This document shows positions 56,842 through 62,990 of a stretch of DNA of 64,000 nucleotides, piece by piece; positions within the stretch are counted from its first letter, which is position 1; each line of letters opens with the position of its first letter. The notes beneath the pieces are model-generated. The model was given only the letters and a program-made list of their open reading frames with translations. It was not told the DNA's origin and did no database searches. The stretch comes from Yoonia sp. BS5-3 (GTDB taxonomy: Bacteria > Pseudomonadota > Alphaproteobacteria > Rhodobacterales > Rhodobacteraceae), in NCBI RefSeq assembly GCF_038069655.2, contig NZ_CP150951.2, positions 558,001 through 622,000 of the forward strand. The letters run 5' to 3'. The translations under genes were made by a program, and so were the position numbers.

Positions 56842-58143
56842 TTAGGACGGGGTGTTATCTGCAACGATCCAACGCAGCCCTGTGGTCGACACACCTTCGG
56901 TCCGCGGCAGATAAATCACCTCGCAATGCGCGCTTAGCTCATCGAACTTGCCCGCCCAGTCATCGCCCATCGCAAAAATATCCGCATCAAAGCGCTTTAT
57001 GTCGTCCGCTTTCTGGTCCCAGCTATGTTCCGGGATCACATCATCAACATAGCGACAGGCCCGCAAAATAATCTCGCGATCAGCATAAGGCATAATGCAC
57101 TTCTTGCCCTTGATGTCGTTGAATTCATCAGTCGAACAGCCAACGATCAAACGATCGCCTAATGCGGCCAATCGGCGCAATAGATGCACATGGCCCACAT
57201 GGAACAGATCAAAGGTCCCATAAGTCAGAATGGTTTTTGGTTTGTTTGTGTTCGTCTCAATTGCAGCAAGTAGTTTGGCAAATTTACGATTTTGGGCTTT
57301 CCATGGAAAAACAAAACGCGGGTTTGGTGTGCGCCATCCAGAACCATAGTTCTGTTCCAAAACGCGCAACGGCGCAGCGGGAATTGGCAAACCACTTACC
57401 TCGCAGGTTCCCAGTGGCACAATATCTGACCGCTGAAGTGTTCCGGCAGCGTAAGGATAGACACTAAAGTTATCATCAGTGCCATATGCCGGAAACAGAT
57501 CAACCTGAAATCCCGCGATTGATGGCAGTTTAATGATGGCCCCACCTCGACCGGCTAAATACGCATCGATCCCGATCGACTTCAATTGGTCAAAAAGGCG
57601 GAAAAAGGCAGCTGCAGCTTCGTCTGGCCCGGCCACATCGAAAATGACCGCAAGATCGATATCGTCGTCATAGGCAATTGGCGCCTTATCTCGGATCAGC
57701 CCGAGTAACGTACCAGAATTTGCAAAAACGGCGTACCCTAGTGACTTTAACTGCTGCACGACCTGATGAACTCCGCCGTAAATCTCAGCCGCGTCGACAT
57801 CCCCCAAACGTGTCGTGACAAAACCATGCGCAGAAAATGACACTCCACCGCTGTGTTTTTCCAACAACTTTTCAAATGCCGTATACTTGTCGAGCTCATT
57901 TGCTTTTTCGCGCGCGGCATACAACATCGACATACGTCCGTGGGCGCGGGCGGGCATTGCGCGCGCAACAACAGCAAACATGATGAATGCTTCATGAAAC
58001 ATGGGACTGCGTCTTTGCGCAACAGGAAGCCCCTTGAGCGCCTGAAACTTAAACCTAGGACGCCCATTGATCGTGCCGCTGATCAGCGCCTCTTTCGCCT
58101 CAGCATGTAATGCTGCCAGTTTTTGGTCTGCGTCCGCTTGCAT
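56842..58143 (-). CDS. LicD-like nucleotidyltransferase fused to a TagD-type cytidylyltransferase
   Basis: 433 aa. The N-terminal 100 residues are helical and unassigned. Residues about 120-290 look like a LicD-type phosphotransferase: NSGTLLGLIRDKAPIAYDDD (SGTLLGLIR at 143-151, DDDID at 159-163). Residues 304-433 are a GT1-like nucleotidyltransferase: TYGTFDLFHVGHVHLLRRL with HVGH at 315-318 and RTEGVSTT at 414-421, as in glycerol-3-phosphate cytidylyltransferases. A single chain might thus make CDP-glycerol (or similar) and transfer the phospho-moiety to a surface glycan. Its end lies 7 bp from the stop of the GGDEF-EAL gene, convergent. It follows the rplA terminator. Confidence 0.8.
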   Translation of the reverse strand: MQADADQKLAALHAEAKEALISGTINGRPRFKFQALKGLPVAQRRSPMFHEAFIMFAVVARAMPARAHGRMSMLYAAREKANELDKYTAFEKLLEKHSGGVSFSAHGFVTTRLGDVDAAEIYGGVHQVVQQLKSLGYAVFANSGTLLGLIRDKAPIAYDDDIDLAVIFDVAGPDEAAAAFFRLFDQLKSIGIDAYLAGRGGAIIKLPSIAGFQVDLFPAYGTDDNFSVYPYAAGTLQRSDIVPLGTCEVSGLPIPAAPLRVLEQNYGSGWRTPNPRFVFPWKAQNRKFAKLLAAIETNTNKPKTILTYGTFDLFHVGHVHLLRRLAALGDRLIVGCSTDEFNDIKGKKCIMPYADREIILRACRYVDDVIPEHSWDQKADDIKRFDADIFAMGDDWAGKFDELSAHCEVIYLPRTEGVSTTGLRWIVADNTPS

Positions 58144-58271: not shown

Positions 58272-58973
58272 TCAGGCGTTACCTGTCGCCGAAGCCACAT
58301 CGATCGATACGCCTGGACCCATTGTTGAGCTGACGGCGATCTTTTTCATGTAAGTGCCCTTGGCACCGGTTGGCTTGGCTTTGCCAACGGCCTCGACAAA
58401 GGCCAGCATGTTTTCTTCAATCTGCTTCGCGCTAAAAGACGCTTTGCCGATCCCAGCATGCACAACACCAGCCTTTTCAGCCTTGAACTGAACCTGACCG
58501 CCTTTGGCGTCTTCAACAGCTTGCTTAACGTCCATCGTGACCGTACCAACGCGTGGGTTTGGCATCAGGTTACGCGGGCCAAGAACCTTACCCAGACGGC
58601 CAACAACGGCCATCATGTCAGGTGTCGCGATGCAGCGGTCGAAATCGATGGTGCCGCCCTGGATGGTTTCCATCAGGTCCTCGGCACCGACGATGTCTGC
58701 ACCAGCTGCCTTAGCTTCGTCTGCTTTTTCGCCGCGGGCGAAAACAGCAACGCGAACCGTCTTACCTGTGCCGTGGGGCAGGCTAACCGTACCGCGCACC
58801 ATTTGGTCGGCGTGACGCGGATCAACGCCCAGTGTCATTGCGATTTCAACAGTTTCATCGAATTTGGCTTTGGCATTATCTTTGACCAAAGACGCAGCTT
58901 CGGCCACTGTGACATTCTGCTTGCCGCCAAATGCTTCGCGGGCCGCAGCAGTCCGCTTTCCAACTTTTGCCAT
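58272..58973 (-). CDS. rplA: 50S ribosomal protein L1
   Basis: 233 aa: [20 protein letters not shown], then [40 protein letters not shown] and [20 protein letters not shown]. It binds 23S rRNA at the L1 stalk and is a translational repressor of rplK-rplA in E. coli. Its ATG shares one base with the rplK stop. Confidence 0.98.
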
Positions 58974-59398
58974 TACTTGACCTCCACACCCATAGACCGG
59001 GCAGAGCCCATGATGATCTGCATCGCGTTATCGATATCGTTCGCGTTCAGATCTTTCATCTTTGCTTCGGCGATTTCACGAACCTGCTTGGCCGTGATCG
59101 AACCAGCAACTGCTTTACCAGGTGTCTGAGACCCGGATTTCAGCTTGGCAGCCTTCTTGATGTAGTAAGACGCAGGTGGCGTCTTGATTTCCATCGAGAA
59201 CGACTTGTCCTGATAGTAAGTGATGATGGTTGGGCATGGGGCGCCGGGCTCCATCTCGCCAGACTTGGCGTTAAAGGCCTTACAGAATTCCATGATATTG
59301 ATCCCGCGCTGACCCAATGCAGGACCCACTGGCGGGGAAGGGTTAGCTTGACCTGCAGGAACCTGCAGTTTGAGCGTGCCCACGATTTTCTTGGCCAT
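58973..59398 (-). CDS. rplK: 50S ribosomal protein L11
   Basis: 141 aa from [40 protein letters not shown] (the thiostrepton-region prolines) and the C-terminal rRNA-binding [20 protein letters not shown]. The start is fixed by conservation; an in-frame extension to 59503 is not used. Normally it follows nusG; here nusG is about 3 kb upstream. Confidence 0.98.
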
Positions 59399-59592
59399 TG
59401 GCCATCTCCTTTTGCAACTCTTGGCACGGCGCGCCGCGACAAGATTTTCGTTGTGTGGTCCGGCGCCGCGCTCGCGAGCGTTTGGCCTCCCACATTTTGG
59501 CATTGCTGATCAGATCAACAACACGGGCGGTCGTTAGCCGAGCATAGCCATGTTTGCAAGATAATTCGGCCTGATAAGGCAGGGTTTCATGG

Positions 59593-61059
59593 CTATCGAT
59601 GCCCGACCCAGCCCCGATCATCGGTGAACATGCGCCCCGGCGCGATCTCGACAGGCCTATAGTCTTCGGGCAAAGCATCCAGCGGCGCAAAAGGCTTTTG
59701 TCCCGCAGCGAGCACGATATTGGCATAGCCCCGCCCGCTGATCGGCCCGCGTATTGCCTGAACATGGGGGTATTGTTTTTGCAAAATCGCATAAGTGCTG
59801 CGGGCAAGCCGGCCATCCGGCGCATCAATCAGGTTCACATAGATCGGGCCATCGGTGATCTGACGCAGCCGAGCATAGGTTTCGACCGTGGTCAGATGCG
59901 CCGGAACCGAAGCGGATGAAAACGCATCCATCACAACCGCATCAAACCGGCGGGTCGTCTCATTGATGAAAACGCGCCCATCCGCATGCACGATCTGATA
60001 CCGTGCGCCGACACCCTGCCCTGCAGCATCTCCCCCATCCCGGATAGTTCCAAACTGCGCAATCATCGCGCCCGCCTGCGGCAGGCGCTGCTGGACGACA
60101 TGGGTGACAAGCGGGTCAATCTCAACGGCGACGGCCTGCGCCTCTGGCCGGGTTTGAAGCAGGGTGGTGGGCAGAGAAAAGCCCCCACCACCGATGAACA
60201 AAACGCTGGGCGCCGGCCCCAAATCCCGGTCCATGCGCGCCCAAAGCAATTGGGTATAGGCCAATGCCAACGCCTGCGCCGGGGTATCTGCGCCGATCTG
60301 TTCGGCAGCCTGTGTCGTCCGGTCCGCATAAAGGCGGATTTCATTGTCGCGGCGCTGCACATCAATGCAGGACAGCCCAGATTCATAGGTGCAGACGGGG
60401 CCCGTGGTCAGGCTTGCGGCAATGAGGGCGCCCGTCAGCACAGCCGGCGCCGGGCTTTGTGCCAATGTCTCGGGCTTATCAGGGGCCTCTACCCGCACGA
60501 AGAATGCACATATCAACGTTGCTGCGCCGCAACCGCTGAATGTCATCGCTGATCCGATAAGCGGCAGGGCCACGAACCCGGCGATAATCGCGCCCGCAAT
60601 CGCCCCGACCGATCCCGCCGCCAAGACGATCCCAAGCGATGATCCCGCCCGTCCAGGACGTGCCTCAACCGCCAATTTTGCCAAAAAGGGCGATGGCAAG
60701 CTGACCAAAACAGAGGCCGGGAAAAAGGTGATGAGCACCGCCAGAAACATCCCACCCGTCCCGCGCAGGCCAATTCCATAGATCACAGCCAGGATCGTTG
60801 GGGACAGCGCCATTAAAACCGCCGTTGCGATCAACGCCTTTCGGATCGCGAGGGCCGCCGCAGCTTTCGGGCGTTCTGCGATAAAACCGCCAATTGCATT
60901 GCCCAGCGCGAACCCTGCCAGCACCGTGGCGATCACCGCGGTCCAGGTGACCAGCGATGTTCCAAAGAACGGCGCCAGAACGCGCCCGGCGGCAATTTCA
61001 TAGGTCAGGCCAACGATGGACAAAACCAAGATCAGGCCGATCGTCGTCCAAAAGCGCAT
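59593..61059 (-). CDS. Fused membrane/spermidine-synthase-like protein
   Basis: 488 aa. The N-terminal half has about six membrane helices (GLILVLSIVGLTYEIAAGRV, TFSGCGAATLICAFF). The C-terminal half is a Rossmann methyltransferase-like domain resembling polyamine synthases: VLFIGGGGFSLPTTLLQTRP, VAVEIDPLV, the VHADGRVFI and FDAVVMDAFSSASVPAHLTT segments. Homologues are annotated fused MFS/spermidine synthase; the usual spermidine-synthase aspartate positions are present (VEIDP, MDAF), but true polyamine synthesis is not proven. It is inserted between rplK and the b561/Rieske pair, divergent from the latter. Confidence 0.82.
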   Translation of the reverse strand: MRFWTTIGLILVLSIVGLTYEIAAGRVLAPFFGTSLVTWTAVIATVLAGFALGNAIGGFIAERPKAAAALAIRKALIATAVLMALSPTILAVIYGIGLRGTGGMFLAVLITFFPASVLVSLPSPFLAKLAVEARPGRAGSSLGIVLAAGSVGAIAGAIIAGFVALPLIGSAMTFSGCGAATLICAFFVRVEAPDKPETLAQSPAPAVLTGALIAASLTTGPVCTYESGLSCIDVQRRDNEIRLYADRTTQAAEQIGADTPAQALALAYTQLLWARMDRDLGPAPSVLFIGGGGFSLPTTLLQTRPEAQAVAVEIDPLVTHVVQQRLPQAGAMIAQFGTIRDGGDAAGQGVGARYQIVHADGRVFINETTRRFDAVVMDAFSSASVPAHLTTVETYARLRQITDGPIYVNLIDAPDGRLARSTYAILQKQYPHVQAIRGPISGRGYANIVLAAGQKPFAPLDALPEDYRPVEIAPGRMFTDDRGWVGHR

Positions 61060-61318
61060 AAATACCTCAACTGCATGCTGCCTGCTTTACCCAAAAGCAG
61101 CTAGCGCTGCACCAAAACAGGGGCAAGGCCATAACGCCTAAACTGGCAGCGTTACGCATTATTCATAAGCTATTGAACCACCATCCAAGCCCACGCTGCG
61201 AAATTTTCCGCCGATGGACTGACAGCTCCGCGCTTTGTGAGATGGCTTCTTACCGTCGCCGCCCTACTATCAAAATGCCGTCCCCAAGGACCCCAGCCTG
61301 ATCTTCGCGAGGTGACAT

Positions 61319-61846
61319 ATGAAATATTCCAAGACGCAAGTCGTCTATCACTGGCTAACCGCCGCGTTGATCTTCGTCATGCTTGGCACGGGGCTGGCCT
61401 ATCGCTTTGATCTGGCAGATCGGGCGGCGCTGAACGCGCACCAGATCGCCGGTCAGTTGCTGATCGTGGTGCTGGCCCTGCGGGTCGGGGCGCGGCTGAT
61501 GCGGCGCAGACCTGTAACGCGCCATCAGCACGCCGCTTGGGAGCGATTACTGGCCGGGGCCGTCCATTTCGGGCTTTACGGAACGATGATCGCCTTTGTG
61601 ATCACCGGGTATGTCTCGGCCTCAGCGCTGAGCAGCAACAGTCTGATTGCGCCTGTCGATATCACCTTCGCCCGCTCTGATACGGGCGAATGGCTGCTGG
61701 ATATTCATTACATGCTGAAATGGGTTCTTCTGGGCTTTTTCGGCCTGCATCTGGCAGGCGCGCTGAAACACCTGCTCATCGATAGGGATGACAGCTTTTC
61801 ACACATGACCTTCACCTCAAAAAAACAGGAGCCACCTAATGCATAA
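61319..61846 (+). CDS. Cytochrome b561-family membrane protein
   Basis: 175 aa with four membrane helices. Candidate heme-ligand histidines are His11 (VVYHWLTAAL), His41 (LNAHQIAG), His83 (AVHFGLYG), His130 (LDIHYMLKW), His144 and His151. Such prokaryotic b561 proteins carry b-type hemes and exchange electrons between quinone and a periplasmic partner. The stop overlaps the start of the Rieske-like gene by 8 bp, so the two are coupled. Confidence 0.87.
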   Translation: MKYSKTQVVYHWLTAALIFVMLGTGLAYRFDLADRAALNAHQIAGQLLIVVLALRVGARLMRRRPVTRHQHAAWERLLAGAVHFGLYGTMIAFVITGYVSASALSSNSLIAPVDITFARSDTGEWLLDIHYMLKWVLLGFFGLHLAGALKHLLIDRDDSFSHMTFTSKKQEPPNA

Positions 61847-62405
61847 ACTCACACGCAGACATGTGATGTTGACGATGACCGGCAGCACCTTGATGCTGTG
61901 TCCGGCAATCTTGAACGCGCAGACTGTCTCGCCGGAATGGGACGGGCTGCCGGATACCACACCTGTCGGCGAAGACCAGTTAATCAATGTCGGCGAAGGC
62001 CCGGCCGAGGTGGACATCACGGATCTGGAACCAGGCCAAGTGACCGTGATCGCAAGACCCACAACCGATGAGGCCTATTCTGCCACGGGGCAGATCCAAT
62101 ATGTCGCCGTGCATTATCGCACCGAAGCGCAAATCGCATTTGGCGCCGAAAATGACCGCGACGGCACCGTTCAGGACCCGCGCTACTTTGTGGTCAATCT
62201 GGTATGTACGCACCGGGGCAAAGCCATTGGCATGACGGGTGATCCTGCTGCGCCATTTGCCTGTTTGGATCGGGGGGATCGCCATTCATCGGTGTTTGAT
62301 GCCTCAGGCTTTGGCATCGCAGGCGCATCCGAGGATGAATATCTGTCTATCCCTGATTACAGCCTTACCACTGACGGGGATCAGGTCGTCCTGCAACTGG
62401 CCTGA
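61839..62405 (+). CDS. Tat-exported Rieske-like protein with altered cluster motif
   Basis: 188 aa. A twin-arginine-type leader (MHKLTRRHVMLTMTGSTLML) precedes a beta-rich domain. The first half of the Rieske box is intact, CTH at residues 123-125. The second is ACLDRGDRHSSVFDASG, with Cys142 and His149, so the spacing is C-x-H-x16-C-x6-H instead of C-x-H-x15-17-C-x-x-H; position +3 after Cys142 is Arg. It could hold a 2Fe-2S cluster with shifted ligand, another metal, or none. It is encoded with a b561 cytochrome, which makes an electron-transfer role likely. Confidence 0.8.
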   Translation: MHKLTRRHVMLTMTGSTLMLCPAILNAQTVSPEWDGLPDTTPVGEDQLINVGEGPAEVDITDLEPGQVTVIARPTTDEAYSATGQIQYVAVHYRTEAQIAFGAENDRDGTVQDPRYFVVNLVCTHRGKAIGMTGDPAAPFACLDRGDRHSSVFDASGFGIAGASEDEYLSIPDYSLTTDGDQVVLQLA

Positions 62406-62410
62406 ACAAA

Positions 62411-62437
62411 AAAGGGGAGCGTCGGACGCTCCCCTTT
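62411..62437. terminator. Bidirectional terminator between the Rieske-like gene and nusG
   Basis: An 11-bp stem AAAGGGGAGCG/CGCTCCCCTTT with a 5-nt loop; A-rich before and T-rich after on both strands. It serves the plus-strand b561/Rieske pair and minus-strand secE-nusG. Confidence 0.88.
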
Positions 62438-62459
62438 CTCTATTCATTATGCAGCAAGC

Positions 62460-62990
62460 CTACTGCTTGGTGACCTGCGTATATTCCAGCTCGACCGGTG
62501 TGGCGCGGCCAAAGATGGACACGGTCACTTTCAGGCGCTGATTTTCTTCGTCGACTTCCTCGACCAGACCATCGAAATCCTCGAACGGACCATCGTTGAC
62601 TTTGACCTTCTCGCCAATCTCGAAGTTGATCAGGGTGCGCGGCGCTTCTTCGCCTTCCTGAACGCGGCCCAGGATCGCCTGCACTTCGGCATCACGCATC
62701 GGCATCGGGCGCCCCTGCGGGCCAAGGAACCCGGTAACGCGGTTGATTGAGTTGATCAGGTGGTAGCCTTCATCGGACATTTCCATATGCACCAGCACGT
62801 AACCGGGCATAAAGCGACGCTCGGCGGTTACCTTTTTGTTGCGGCGGATTTCGATCACTTCCTCGGTGGGGACCAGAACTTCGTCGATCTGCTCATCCAG
62901 CCCGCGTTCTTCCGCTTTGGTCCGGATTTCCTCTGCGATCTTCTTTTCGAAGTTCGACAGAACGCTTACCGAATACCACCGTTTCGCCAT
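62460..62990 (-). CDS. nusG: Transcription termination/antitermination factor NusG
   Basis: 176 aa: RWYSVSVLSNFEKKIAEEIR at the start of the NGN domain, VTAERRFMPGYVLVHMEMSD, RVTGFLGPQGRPMPM, and a C-terminal KOW domain (NFEIGEKVKVNDGPFEDFDG). It lies 187 bp after secE, with a hairpin in between, and is followed by a terminator rather than rplK. Confidence 0.97.
   Translation of the reverse strand: MAKRWYSVSVLSNFEKKIAEEIRTKAEERGLDEQIDEVLVPTEEVIEIRRNKKVTAERRFMPGYVLVHMEMSDEGYHLINSINRVTGFLGPQGRPMPMRDAEVQAILGRVQEGEEAPRTLINFEIGEKVKVNDGPFEDFDGLVEEVDEENQRLKVTVSIFGRATPVELEYTQVTKQ

Follow-up and report, generated by a model that had tools for sequence, protein, structure and literature searches.

A Rieske-like protein with a lengthened second ligand box, encoded beside cytochrome b561 in Rhodobacteraceae

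The window, by which we mean the whole 64,000-nucleotide stretch of Yoonia sp. BS5-3 DNA that was analysed, contains two overlapping + strand open reading frames that encode a cytochrome b561 and a Rieske-like protein. The features of this gene pair are as follows.

61319..61846 (+): cytochrome b561 (PF01292), 175 aa; Pfam E 9e-23, 5oc0 profile match E 2.5e-14; candidate haem ligands H11, H41, H130 and H144
61839..62405 (+): Rieske/PetA-like protein, 188 aa, variant motif C-x-H-x16-C-x6-H; from sequence, alignment and fold match
61839..61846 (+): 8-base overlap between the end of the b561 gene and the start of the Rieske-like gene, from the ORF coordinates; the gap ranges from -13 to +34 bases across 12 loci
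61839..61922 (+): N-terminal leader of Tat type, in which R6, R7 and C21-P22-A23 are invariant, from the alignment
62205..62213 (+): first ligand box, C123-T-H125, followed by R-G-K; K128 occupies a disulfide-Cys position in the alignment with canonical relatives
62262..62285 (+): second ligand box, C142-LDRGDR-H149, with the four-residue insertion at about 144-147, from the alignment

An AGGAG ribosome-binding site precedes the ATG of the Rieske-like gene, and the 8-base overlap makes translational coupling of the two genes likely. In the window the Rieske-like gene has b561, nusG, a spermidine-synthase-like gene and rplK as its neighbours. The linkage to b561, pointed out in an earlier sequence-only reading of this DNA, extends to every intact locus: b561 lies directly upstream of the Rieske gene in 12 of 12.

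The Rieske-like protein reads VCTHRGKAIGMTGDPAAPFACLDRGDRHSSVFD, in which the ligand boxes are C123-x-H125-x16-C142-x6-H149 and R145 is the residue three positions after C142; both the spacing and this Arg are as the sequence-only reading had them. The Rieske motif has been reviewed as Cys-X-His-X15-47-Cys-X2-His (PMC11138216). All 12 intact sequences depart from it in having a C-x6-H second box, and the protein is therefore filed here as a variant rather than as a standard Rieske member. Residues C123, H125, C142, H149, R145, G127 and C21-P22-A23 are invariant in the 12 intact sequences, the window protein included, so that Cys142 and His149, the two positions whose conservation had been singled out for checking, are present throughout. 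The Arg pair of the proposed Tat leader, R6 and R7, is likewise invariant. The Cys-Pro-Ala at residues 21–23 (window 61899-61907) is unexpected in a cleaved signal peptide; given its invariance, the N-terminal segment may be retained to anchor the protein in the membrane, like that of PetA.

The 11 intact homologues are all from Rhodobacteraceae and are 47–70% identical, and all have the altered spacing. They comprise six congeners from the first search and a seventh congener (G871), representatives of two other genera (G308 and G231), and two metagenome-assembled sequences (L012 and L013). A frameshift or misassembly as the source of the spacing is rejected because 11 other genomes have the same one. 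In an alignment with 17 canonical relatives, namely L015 (from genome G735) and 16 bc1 PetA proteins, four extra columns fall between the second Cys and the second His in 12 of 12 variants and in 0 of 17 canonical sequences, and the two Cys and two His of the variants align with the canonical ligands. The lengthened loop follows the pattern C-[TL]-[DK]-R-[GR]-x-[RY]-H, and because this is common to the variants the insert itself is conserved. A further copy, from metagenome genome G346 (L014 4395-5582, on a contig shared with L008), has a frameshifted b561 and a Rieske gene interrupted by an in-frame stop, with the C-x6-H motif intact; this damage is decay or an assembly error in that genome.

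Pairwise dN/dS ranges from 0.04 for the closest pair (dS 0.28) up to 0.21, many dS values being saturated and the corresponding ratios rough. By this comparison of coding sequences the Rieske-like gene is under purifying selection. A decayed pseudogene is rejected on the dN/dS values and the conservation in 11 intact homologues. The sequence-only reading had reckoned with homologues bearing a canonical C-x-x-H, next to which the window copy would be a decayed one; no orthologue is of this kind, and canonical relatives occur only outside the b561-linked clade. A related explanation is that the protein is a decayed, metal-free Rieske protein, kept for a structural role beside b561. Its sub-threshold scores to Rieske families and the metagenome copy with an in-frame stop and frameshifted b561 would suit such a history, but the four ligands are invariant in all 12 intact copies under strong purifying selection, and this argues against cluster loss because loss should release exactly those residues. 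We regard the metal-free explanation as quite improbable.

In the tree, which has long branches and a midpoint root, the 12 variants are split off by one branch (support 99/92) that adjoins the canonical L015, and the variants together with L015 are set apart from the bc1 PetA proteins (support 100/99). A canonical ancestor and a single gain of four residues would be the simplest reading of this topology. No further variant was found in viral contigs, plasmids and 299 phylum-wide genomes; the one scan of genome contigs drew its patterns from a single sequence and may miss distant relatives in other phyla. The weak class- and phylum-level matches whose sequences were read all have the canonical C-x2-H box.

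The window protein has no match in Pfam, PF00355 included, which fits its altered second box. Its match to the NCBIfam bc1 Rieske family TIGR01416 is sub-threshold (E 9.1e-5, 22.5 bits against a cut-off of 97.4), and the same family matches 10 of the 11 members at E 0.1 or better. Two structure models were built. The first, from the 11 variant sequences alone, has a mean pLDDT of 68, with the loop at 147-151 under 50, and still matches bc1 Rieske heads (Z 12.6). For the second, canonical PetA relatives were added to the alignment, which leans the model towards the Rieske fold, a bias from which the variants-only model is free; its mean pLDDT is 86.5, rising to about 96 across most of the mature domain and falling to about 83 at residues 141-150, and its best fold match is a bc1 Rieske head (VIA-align Z 14.3, rmsd 2.1 Å, 118 residues). 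The predicted models thus have a Rieske fold with the canonical rows (Z 14.3) and without them (Z about 12.6), and with the TIGR01416 match this places the predicted relationship to Rieske proteins far beyond chance. A role as the bc1 iron-sulphur subunit is rejected as unlikely on the gene context, the TIGR01416 score and the presence of a separate canonical PetA (L031) in the genome. The protein has neither a score above the cut-off for that subunit, nor a link to cytochrome b/c1 genes, nor the disulfide cysteine pair.

The partner matches PF01292 at 81.3 bits against a cut-off of 30.1. Residues H11, H41, H130 and H144 are invariant in 11 b561 homologues, at positions that match the haem positions of Escherichia coli CybB (5oc0), the only solved relative found by the b561 profile. 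From the family score and these four His residues, which are candidate haem ligands, the protein is a four-helix prokaryotic cytochrome b561. This bears on a second claim of the sequence-only reading, that the pair is a minimal analogue of the bc1 couple: this PF01292 protein is related to CybB and not to the cytochrome b of bc1, and the comparison goes further than the evidence does. A redox pair is nonetheless the best-supported reading of the two genes, as judged from sequence and analogy.

The relationship to CybB raises the question of whether b561 alone is the active component, as a CybB-like superoxide oxidase with the Rieske-like protein as an accessory or an independent neighbour. The profile match to 5oc0 alone among solved structures and the conserved haem His residues would agree with this. 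However, the periplasmic residues with which CybB gathers superoxide, R30, R35, R38, R108 and K134 (PMC11869295), correspond in the 5oc0 alignment to positions that are variable or hydrophobic in the b561 family, and in each of the 12 intact loci the two genes lie side by side. A superoxide oxidase acting by itself is very improbable.

Pairing of b561 with a periplasmic partner is an established pattern, since it is seen in LcoA-BcnA (PMC9113575) and in two loci of the same genome. LcoA-BcnA, in which the partner of b561 is an exported YceI lipocalin, protects against lipid peroxidation (PMC9113575). The two loci, in which the YceI-type domains are likely and were assigned by sequence reading only, are a b561 fused to such a domain (L061) and a b561 gene between two such genes (L062).

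The gene pair probably encodes a two-component redox module, in which b561 would link the quinone pool to a periplasmic [2Fe-2S] Rieske-type protein that passes single electrons; this rests on sequence, the predicted models and analogy. In such a module the Rieske-type protein would be located at the periplasmic face of the membrane and bind a [2Fe-2S] cluster, one iron being held by C123 and C142 and the second by H125 and H149. Loop 2 would bulge outwards at the added R-G-x segment, which, together with K128 and R148, would take over the shielding role of the disulfide. By analogy with LcoA-BcnA and CybB, b561 would connect the Rieske-type protein to the quinone pool, and single electrons would move through the Rieske-type protein between the periplasmic-side haem of b561 and some periplasmic donor or acceptor. 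Beyond b561, no partner gene or substrate is linked to the pair.

Retention of the cluster is supported by the invariant C123, H125, C142 and H149 and by the residues kept around the cluster site. The position of the cluster hydrogen-bonding Ser is S151 in 11 of 12 variants and Thr in one, the bc1 Tyr position (153) is Tyr in eight and Phe in four, and G127 is kept. The positions of the bc1 Rieske disulfide cysteines are replaced, by K128 and by R148 (each in 11 of 12). Loss of the disulfide alone does not forbid a cluster, because the AioB of NT-26 has Phe and Gly in place of the disulfide and yet holds a [2Fe-2S] cluster (PMC3758308). Counting against the proposed module, the confident model is biased by the canonical PetA rows, and its loop at 141-150 is modelled at lower pLDDT. 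The sequence-only reading held that the ligand geometry must differ if the cluster is kept; a difference is possible, but not a necessity, since the ligands could keep their positions with the four residues bulging out.

The same residues bear on whether the Rieske fold is kept with a different centre, a mononuclear Zn or Fe held by Cys2His2, in a structural, sensory or catalytic role. The insertion of four residues into a loop whose Cys-X2-His spacing is otherwise fixed (PMC11138216), the loss of both stabilising cysteines and the ability of a Cys2His2 set to hold other metals would all be compatible with such a centre, whereas the Rieske-typical hydrogen-bonding Ser and Tyr/Phe positions and the linkage to a haem redox partner are retained. 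We consider a different centre of this kind unlikely. It is tempting to speculate further that the enlarged, conserved C-x6-H loop alters how the centre is coordinated, how exposed it is or what it consists of, that the site is tuned to exchange electrons directly with b561, and that the pair forms a bc1-independent path from quinone to periplasm; this combination we put forward tentatively, as possible though doubtful.

Several known systems come close to this gene pair. With PetA of bc1 (TIGR01416, PF00355) the window protein shares the fold (Z about 14), the RR leader, the four ligands, the CxHxG box and the Ser and Tyr/Phe neighbours. It differs in having C-x6-H where PetA has C-x2-H, in lacking the disulfide cysteines, and in being partnered by b561 rather than by cytochrome b/c1 of bc1. 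The nearest protein in the tree is a small Rieske-like protein of the G735 lineage (L015, L093-L095), of similar size and with an RR leader; L015 is 33% identical and also has x16 between the boxes. In contrast to the window protein, the G735 form has a CPCH second box and both extra cysteines. At least four genomes of the lineage encode proteins like L015; CPCH is present in those that were read, and no b561 neighbour was seen within the flanks read. The arsenite oxidase Rieske subunit AioB has the Rieske fold and, in its NT-26 form, no disulfide (PMC3758308), but has a canonical C-x2-H box and a molybdenum enzyme as partner. In LcoA-BcnA the b561 gene is likewise directly upstream of, or fused to, that of an exported partner (PMC9113575), which is a YceI-type lipocalin and not a Rieske-fold protein. 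CybB (5oc0) shares the b561 fold and haem histidines with the window b561, but its superoxide-gathering Arg/Lys set is not conserved there, and no Rieske partner figures in its description.

Recognition of Rieske proteins makes use of the Cys-x2-His half of the motif, which is taken to be invariable, and the window protein escapes Pfam. An exception that is conserved and retains every ligand would reveal how far the cluster loop can change, and would offer a natural test of the contributions of the disulfide and the tight loop to redox potential. It would also give cytochrome b561 an electron-transfer partner. No description of altered Rieske spacing or of a b561-Rieske operon was found in open-access papers.

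In most carriers the pair has rplK on one side and nusG on the other and is oriented divergently from the ribosomal operon. Most congeners without the pair have an empty rplK-nusG gap of about 110–125 bases, and the pair is therefore a presence/absence module. Other genes flank it in G308 and G231, in which nusG and rplK lie together elsewhere, and the flanks of the damaged metagenome copy are without rplK and nusG. Among the genomes of the same genus in the first sample, seven of 36 carry the pair, window included. Its function is dispensable for most of the family, because it is found in only 4 of 395 genomes of the family sample.

The rplK-nusG interval was compared between the window (58973-62990) and L068, L069, L071, L076 and L078; several congeners hold other, unrelated genes there, and it may be an insertion hot spot. 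In the window a membrane protein of 488 aa, in which a weak spermidine-synthase-like domain is recognised, is encoded between rplK and the pair (59593-61059, - strand); the gene was not found in that position in other carriers. Adjoining rplA, a gene at window 56842-58143 (- strand) encodes a weak LicD-like region joined to a cytidylyltransferase-like domain.
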